Of a DNA stretch of 64,000 bases, positions 9,480-34,187 are shown piece by piece. A program made the translations under genes and the position numbers. The DNA is from Planctomyces sp. SH-PL14 (lineage in GTDB: Bacteria; Planctomycetota; Planctomycetia; Planctomycetales; Planctomycetaceae): the NCBI RefSeq assembly GCF_001610835.1, contig NZ_CP011270.1, forward strand, positions 1,940,001 to 2,004,000, given 5' to 3'. The notes beneath the pieces were generated by a model. It saw only the letters and a list, made by a program, of their open reading frames with translations. It was not told where the DNA came from and did no database searches. How positions within the stretch are numbered: the stretch's first letter is position 1; the number at the start of each line of letters is the position of its first letter.

Positions 9480-9810
9480 GTCCTTGCCGGCACGACTTGA
9501 TAGCTCAAACCCAACGTGCCACGGCAGCCGGGGTCAAGGGGACAACCCCTTGCCGCCGGAGGCACTCCTGTGAGGCCCCGCGGTACACGACGGGCGTCCG
9601 CTTTGTGGTACCAGCGTTGAGGACTCCCTCCAAATACACGGCTCGCTTTGCAATCCCTGCGGGTTGGTGAGGGGGCATACGGCACCGTGTCCGCGTTTAG
9701 ACACGCGCTCCTTCAGACATCTCTCGACGGCCAGGCCTCCGGCGGGCAAAGGGCCCAAAGAACAACACAGGCCCCTCTGCACTCCCCACCAGGGTGCCCC
9801 TGGACCCGGT
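9480..9810 (-). repeat. Intergenic structured element, copy 1
   Basis: A full copy read on the minus strand, filling most of the gap between two convergent genes. Subfamily A (leading CCGGGTCC and a 6-bp first hairpin CCAGGG/CCCTGG). The left-arm hairpin H2 carries the long TGTGTTGTT-containing loop; the right-arm hairpin H3 has the short loop TTGT. The central hairpin pairs TGTCT with GGACA, keeping one pair as G-U. Confidence 0.92.
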
Positions 9811-11810: not shown

Positions 11811-12153
11811 ACCGGGTCCAGGGGCACCCTGGTGGGGAGTGCAGAGGGGCCTGTGTTGTTCTTTGGGCCCTTTGCCCGCCGGAGGCCTGGCCGTCGAGAG
11901 ATGTCTGAAGGAGATCGTGTCCAAACGCGGACACCGTGTCGGATGCCCCCTCACCAACCCGCGGGGATTCCAGGGCGAGCGGTGAGTTCTCAACGCCGGT
12001 TCCACAAAGGGGACGTCCGTTGTGTCCCACGGTTCCGCGACGAATATGCCTCCGGCGGCAAGGGGGCCAAAAAAACAACACAGGCCCCCTTGACCCCAGG
12101 CTGCCGTGGCACGTTGGGTTTGAGCAAACAGAGCTGCGCCGGCCAGAACGTGG
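11811..12153 (+). repeat. Intergenic structured element, copy 2
   Basis: A full copy between two divergent genes, subfamily A. It is the longest copy because both arm hairpins (H2 and H3) carry the long loop cassette: TGTGTTGTTCTTT in H2 and its near reverse complement in H3, where the stem reaches 10 bp. The right end is the most diverged of the set (CCAGAACGTGG instead of AAGGACGCGG). Confidence 0.92.
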
Positions 12154-22237: not shown

Positions 22238-22555
22238 ACCGGGGTCCAGGGGGAACCCCTGGTGGGGAGTGCAGAGGGGCAACGCCCCTTTGCCCGCCGG
22301 AGGCCTGGCTGTCGAAAGATGCTTGAAGGAACACGTGTCCAAGCGCGGACAACGTGCCGGATGCACCTTCACCAACCCGCAGGGAGTCCAGAGCGAGCGG
22401 GGAGTCCTCAACGCCGGTACCACAAAGCAGACGCCCGTTGTGTACCACGGTTCCTCATGGAAGCGCCTCCGGCAGCAAGGGGGCGAGACCCCCTTGACCC
22501 CAGCGGCCGTGGCACAATGGGTTTGAGCAAGCACAGCCGTGCCGGCAAGGACACG
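22238..22555 (+). repeat. Intergenic structured element, copy 3
   Basis: A full copy between the start of the DUF11-type gene and the end of the tRNA gene. Subfamily B (leading CCGGGGTCC; first hairpin 7 bp, CCAGGGG/CCCCTGG with loop GAA). Both arm hairpins have short loops; H3 is an 8-bp stem with loop CGAGA. The right strand of the H3 base has CAGC instead of CGGC. Confidence 0.92.
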
Positions 22556-22576
22556 ACTCCAGACTCCAGAAACGAC

Positions 22577-22613: not shown

Positions 22614-22686
22614 AGCCACCAGTCGGATTTGAACCGACGACCTATGCTTTACGAAAGCATTGCTCTACCAGCTGAGCTACGGTGGC
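22614..22686 (-). tRNA. tRNA-Thr (anticodon CGU)
   Basis: Folds as a full cloverleaf of 73 nt: acceptor GCCACCG/TGGTGGC with a terminal-side G-U pair, D arm GCTC/GAGC, anticodon stem ATGCT/AGCAT with loop TTCGTAA (anticodon CGT, reading ACG), variable loop AGGTC, T arm GTCGG/CCGAC with loop TTCAAAT, and discriminator T. CCA is not encoded. It reads a codon that is common in this high-GC DNA. Confidence 0.95.
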
Positions 22687-33861: not shown

Positions 33862-34187
33862 GTCCTTGCCGGCACGGTGCTGCTCGCTCAAACCCAATGT
33901 GCCACGGCAGCCTGGGGTCAAGGGGGCCTGTGTTGTTTTCTTGGCCCCCTTGCCGCCGGAGGCACTCCTGTGATTAACCGTGGGATACAACGGACGTCCC
34001 CTTTGTGGGACCGGCGTTGAAGACTCACCACTCGCTGTGGAATTCCCGCGGATTGGTGAGGGGGCATCTGGCACGGTGTCCGCGTTTGGACACGCACTTC
34101 TTCAGACACCTCTCGACGAGAGGGCCTCCGGCGGGCAAGAGGGCGTTGCCCCCTTGCATCCCCCACCAGGGTGCCCCTGGACCCGGT
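33862..34187 (-). repeat. Intergenic structured element, copy 4
   Basis: A full copy read on the minus strand between two co-oriented plus-strand genes; its right end lies 13 bp after the esterase stop. Subfamily A. H2 has the short loop but a rearranged stem (AAGGGGGC/GCCCTCTT in place of GAGGGGC/GCCCCTTT), where three adjacent pairs changed and all remained paired. H3 has the long loop. Confidence 0.92.

Follow-up and report, generated by a model that had tools for sequence, protein, structure and literature searches.

Copy 4 of an interspersed repeat in Planctomyces sp. SH-PL14 carries a common H2 allele with coupled changes in stem and linker

Introduction

When matched changes on the two arms of a hairpin leave its pairing intact, do they record a compensatory event in one copy of a repeat or a property of the whole repeat family? 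The question is raised by copy 4 of an interspersed element of about 320 nt (consensus 319 columns), located at positions 33862–34187 of the window, by which we mean the entire 64,000-nucleotide stretch analysed (positions 1,940,001–2,004,000 of the single-contig genome of Planctomyces sp. SH-PL14; 8,442,773 bases, G+C about 66%). The folding strand is the minus strand here, and the features of copy 4 are given in that reading. The first-pass annotation had singled out hairpin H2 of this copy as a case of independent changes at matching positions, ascribed to selection for pairing.

The H2 allele of copy 4

The H2 region of copy 4 (34165 down to 34130, minus strand) reads TGGGGGATGCAAGGGGGCAACGCCCTCTTGCCCGCC and includes the succession GGGGGA TGCA AGGGGGC AAC GCCCTCTTGC. 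The hairpin itself (34135–34157, minus strand; consensus columns 32–41 paired with 45–54) has the form GCAAGGGGGC AAC GCCCTCTTGC and follows the linker purines of columns 25–30 (GGGGGA, 34159–34164, minus strand), among which columns 29 and 30 are positions 34160 and 34159. The other eight copies of the window all read (G/A)GGGAG TGCA GAGGGG, each with AG TGCA GA; five have an AAC loop with GCCCCTTT and three a long T-rich loop. Read on the minus strand, the bases originally reported for H2 in all these copies are present, and the pair-by-pair description of copy 4 is accurate: A-T became G-C at 36-50, G-C became G-U at 37-49 and G-U became A-U at 35-51. That all pairs survive is true of the minus strand only, since on the plus strand the G-U corresponds to A.C, a mismatch. 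The proposed dinucleotide swap is found in the stem, but its description was incomplete, as AG to GA is also seen outside the stem, at columns 29–30.

Copy 4 is not a special case. Three haplotypes dominate the 360 copies with a parsable H2: a (AG.GA, 157 copies), b (GA.AG, 156 copies, including copy 4) and c (GG.GG, 30 copies); AA.AA, with AA at 29–30, was found in none of the 360. Exact H2 strings recur 86, 46, 14 and 13 times, and that of copy 4 is present in 46 of the 360 parsed copies, which rules out a sequencing error. Since its haplotype is widespread, copy 4 does not provide evidence of an independent compensatory event, contrary to what had been proposed. Haplotype b is itself variable in the 3' arm (CC 58, TC 65, CT 29, TT 0; Fisher p 9e-9), with at most one wobble throughout. 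Most H2 stems have exactly one G-U wobble, its position varying, and T is never found at both 49 and 50 in haplotype b.

The repeat family and its genomic setting

A profile search of 2.864 Mb, the 34% of the genome from which the family statistics are drawn, detected 402 copies, 286 of them full length and half on each strand. This scales to about 1,185 copies in 8.44 Mb, in agreement with the 1,182–1,210 candidates of a first look. In the genome itself, 40 near-full-length copies were scored. No match at E 1e-5 or better was found in three overlapping sets of planctomycete genomes (59, 398 and 294); the taxonomic family was represented in the sample by 36 other genomes and the genus by none. 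Only short isolated matches of 20–78 bases, chance-like in character, were seen in other planctomycete genomes, and no homologues were found on plasmids or phages. A close relative sought through a neighbouring gene yielded only a distant Pirellulaceae protein. Rfam gave no match at the gathering score, the only hit being a chance match at E 4.2. Mirror G-runs were also considered as a class-wide motif and rejected, this genome having 1,064 and none of 198 others more than 3.

The copies have a mean identity of about 83% and lie about 12% from the consensus; the most similar pair among 230 copies does not exceed 92.4%. Conservation is uneven, 107 of the 319 columns being at least 98% conserved and 27 columns less than 60%. 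In a block analysis of the same number of copies (230), similarity in one block was no predictor of that in any other, with no corrected correlation above about 0.02. Consequently, a tree of the copies carries little information and the independent origins of the H2 alleles cannot be counted. Local conversion was considered from the similarity of neighbouring copies and rejected, the effect being very weak at most.

According to our home-made gene caller, no copy of 154 extends more than 100 bp into a called gene, and copies begin at a median of 20–29 bp past neighbouring stop codons and at least 40 bp from starts. For the number of gaps available, copies are as frequent between divergent (43 of 119) as between convergent genes (43 of 120), so that a simple terminator role does not fit. 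The consensus ends AACCGGGTCC and GGACGCGGTT are candidate terminal inverted repeats, of which the outer five pairs are only 54% Watson–Crick. Comparison of the flanks gave noise-level maxima only and no target-site duplication, although old duplications could have decayed, and no parent autonomous element with the ends of the repeat was found when split copies were inspected over 2.06 Mb. The genome encodes two Y1 transposase and five reverse-transcriptase domains, for which no tie to the repeat was found; the nearest copies lie 1.3 kb and >7 kb from the Y1 genes at 6246572 and 2097753, respectively. Near columns 163–180, some broken copies run into a second repeat (GGAAGTCCCGCAGGGACGGCCGAAARTAGCCCACCCTTT...), for example at about 2203215–2203369 of contig G000:C1, as does one partial copy ending at column 163. 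In the window, a tRNA gene (22614–22686, minus strand) lies just past the element copy at about 22240–22560.

Pairing in H2

Across 286 copies the H2 stem is 89% Watson–Crick and a further 10% G-T, with only 0.3% A-C. Pair 36-50 (A-T 152, G-C 151, G-T 35, A-C 2) has the highest standard-pair excess of the 23,549 column pairs tested (z=12.2). In another alignment, made of 92 copies with 29 distinct rows, H2 exceeded shuffled controls in the proportion of paired cells (97.6% vs 93.7%), in covariation score (0.247 vs 0.166) and in doubly changed cells (15 vs 3.8). None of 500 shuffles matched the observed values, and all three measures dropped when the partner strand was slid. The loop-closing pairs vary on both sides as well, e.g. 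GGGGATCACATCCCC. Wobble-type cells are strand-specific, G-T outnumbering A-C by 314 to 13, which indicates that the constraint acts on one strand, the minus strand in copy 4.

These data support H2 covariation as a real pairing signal, as expected if one strand must fold. Selection for pairing, as suggested at the outset, thus appears likely from the variation of H2 across the family rather than from copy 4. We also applied our own R-scape-like script, in which changes are placed on a tree, with 40 simulations as the null. Under this stricter null pair 36-50 alone was not significant (E=0.12), and only the pairs 30/35 and 29/36, which join linker and stem, rose above the maximum of all 40 simulations.

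Coupling between linker and stem purines

The strongest coupling signal is not pairing but a mirror identity between the linker and the stem. In almost all copies linker base 29 equals stem base 36 and linker base 30 equals stem base 35 (V 0.98 and 1.0, against a median of 0.12–0.16 at that distance), and 337 of 360 copies have all five inner mirror positions intact. The coupling is present alike in copies with AAC, other short and long loops. Because columns 29–30 lie outside the H2 stem, pairing alone fails to explain their matched changes, and the strand directions are wrong for an ordinary duplex between 25–30 and 46–51.

The pattern is plausibly that expected of purine-purine-pyrimidine base triples at a four-way junction. 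Column combinations at 29.36-50 are A.A-T (152 copies), G.G-C (151) and G.G-T (35), and those at 30.35-51 are G.G-T (184) and A.A-T (156). In tRNA layers, A.A-U and G.G-C interchange. Stem pairs and third bases thus covary in the alignment as in a structured RNA with triples, although linkage inherited from a few ancestral haplotypes could give the same result.

Other stems and the predicted fold

The remaining stems of copy 4 are conserved across the family. H1 (CCAGGGGCACCCTGG, 34166–34180, minus strand; columns 9–23) is 99% Watson–Crick, and the length of its upstream G-run (3 or 4) tracks the number of C residues in its stem (3 or 4), with 223 and 78 copies on and 14 and 11 off the diagonal. 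Stem P joins CCGCCGGAGGC (34124–34134, minus strand; columns 55–65) to GCCTCCGGCGG (33953–33963, minus strand; columns 226–236) in 11 bp that are 99% Watson–Crick. H3, present in copy 4 in its long-loop form (33919–33952, minus strand; columns 237–257), is 94% Watson–Crick, with covariation at 243-251, 245-249 and 246-250. Stems P, H2 and H3 abut, and the interior helices show little covariation.

The proposed partner of linker GGGG 25–28 is CCCC at columns 259–262 (33914–33917, minus strand; A258 is 33918), with which it pairs in the MFE structure of copy 4. This structure (z=-3.9) places linker bases 29–30 between the short GGGG:CCCC stem and H2. The adjoining pair 24-263 is T-G or T-A in 283 of 286 copies; 39 of the 286 have an A.C mismatch in place of pair 25-262. 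The bottom strand of copy 4 folds about equally well (z=-3.6), since the element is an imperfect palindrome, and the energy model applied to the consensus favours another, rod-like fold joining the H2 and H3 arms.

Different copies carry the 18-nt T-rich sequence CCTGTGTTGTTTTCTTGG as the loop of H2 or of H3, in H3 also in inverted orientation, and these occurrences are mutually independent; examples in the window are 33919–33952, 9741–9788 and 11833–11880. Hairpin modules therefore appear to move between positions. Long T-rich H2 and H3 loops were examined as kissing partners and rejected, as they do not co-occur (Fisher p 0.55).

Discussion

We favour the view that copy 4 has the second most frequent H2 allele of an intergenic, non-coding repeat that is present in high copy number and has been found in this genome alone, in which H2 pairing is kept and triples probably connect linker and stem; taken as a whole, we hold this explanation to be moderately probable. 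One strand, minus in copy 4, would fold as RNA or single-stranded DNA around a junction at which stem P0' (24–28:259–263) and H2 meet the long-range stem P, which is invariant, and H3. Pairing in H2 would be maintained, usually with one G-U wobble, and the linker purine strand between P0' and H2 would probably dock in the H2 groove through the triples 29.36-50 and 30.35-51. We propose that linker and stem purines change together as a result of this docking.

The coupling could also be simple linkage, if each of the three H2 versions had a single origin in an ancestral source element, after which recombination or gene conversion redistributed them among the copies. Selection for pairing, if any, would then have acted only a few times, long ago. 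We regard this as quite possible, if not the reading we would choose. Three dominant haplotypes in a family with shuffled modules imply few independent changes, and exact H2 strings do recur many times. Moreover, AA.AA is absent although triples would permit it, other local cassettes are tight too (e.g. columns 67–70, V 0.65–0.99, as tightly linked over 4 bases) and one T-rich loop is common to H2, H3 and inverted H3, so that the coupling could date from few founders. Yet even a few switches would all have kept both mirror identity and standard pairing, the 3' arm of haplotype b varies without ever exceeding one wobble, the coupling extends across different loops and G-T far outnumbers A-C. 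The separate coupling of G-run and stem length in H1 also argues against pure linkage. Selection beyond inheritance from founders is what these observations would suggest.

Two further mechanisms deserve mention. Matched changes would arise without selection if one arm were copied from the other during replication by template switching in a quasi-palindrome. The element does form an imperfect inverted repeat whose arms are hairpins, and the exchange of loops from arm to arm hints that such events may occur; but template switching gives perfect arms, whereas haplotype b mostly has TC, with one G-U retained, and not CC, nor can it create same-strand mirror identity at 29–30, outside the stem. 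We consider it very improbable. The mirror repeat RRRRRR-TGCA-RRRRRR might instead fold as DNA, in an H-DNA-like fold-back triplex, rather than as RNA. At H1, H2 and H3 alike, purine runs are mirrored about a 4-nt T-N-N-A spacer, and the antiparallel purine motif is built of A.A-T and G.G-C triplets. Ordinary pairing between GGG(G) and CCCC 259–262 can account for the runs of H1 and H3, and runs of 4–6 are short for H-DNA, which makes a triplex of this kind improbable, if less so than template switching.

Returning to the single-stranded fold, the repeat is most aptly called a large MITE/ERIC-like element, known so far only from this genome, in which the hairpins and the long-range stem are probably constrained. 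Our working view is that the predicted fold helps the element itself to spread or persist, rather than serving particular genes, because copies are found in both orientations and in all gap types; the element would have spread as a MITE-like mobile element. A more ambitious version, in which selection keeps each of the approximately 1,200 dispersed copies folding, as RNA or as single-stranded DNA, around a four-way junction resembling that of tRNA, where the purine linker reads the adjacent stem through covarying triples, appears rather unlikely to us. With hundreds of naturally occurring variants of the fold available from one genome, the structure, perhaps including tertiary contacts, can be read from covariation. 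The family also poses a puzzle: some 1,200 copies about 12% off consensus have almost no phylogenetic structure, yet a third of the columns are almost invariant.

Comparison with known systems

The contact of a linker base with a stem purine next to it at the four-way junction would recall the core triples of tRNA, such as layers 9-12-23 and 13-22-46 (PMC9095486), in which bases of the linker and the variable region touch such a purine. The resemblance is to be read as analogy and not homology: the arms of the repeat are much longer, and its contacts are known from covariation alone, not from a structure.

REP and REPIN sequences with their RAYT are extragenic hairpin repeats reported in Planctomycetes too (PMC3733652, PMC3116915). 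Our repeat likewise has extragenic hairpins, in a genome with two Y1 transposases, but its unit of about 320 nt differs from the 20–40 bp palindromes of REPs, no GTAG or CGTC tag was recognized beside the hairpins and the nearest copy lies more than 1 kb from a Y1 gene. Unit size and the lack of a tag and of an adjoining RAYT/Y1 gene thus exclude it from this group.

The closer likeness is to ERIC and other bacterial MITEs (PMC10969869), which are also non-coding, imperfectly palindromic, intergenic and of high copy number. The 402 copies in 2.864 Mb, with no gene overlap above 100 bp among 154, correspond to the many short non-coding intergenic copies of a MITE, and the ends resemble a short terminal inverted repeat (AACCGsGTCC). 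Unlike ERIC, for which up to 711 copies have been reported (PMC10969869), the repeat has about 1,185 copies of about 320 nt; it is without a detected target duplication or an identified related IS, and is further set apart from ERIC and MITEs by strand-specific hairpin covariation and by the coupling of mirrored purines.
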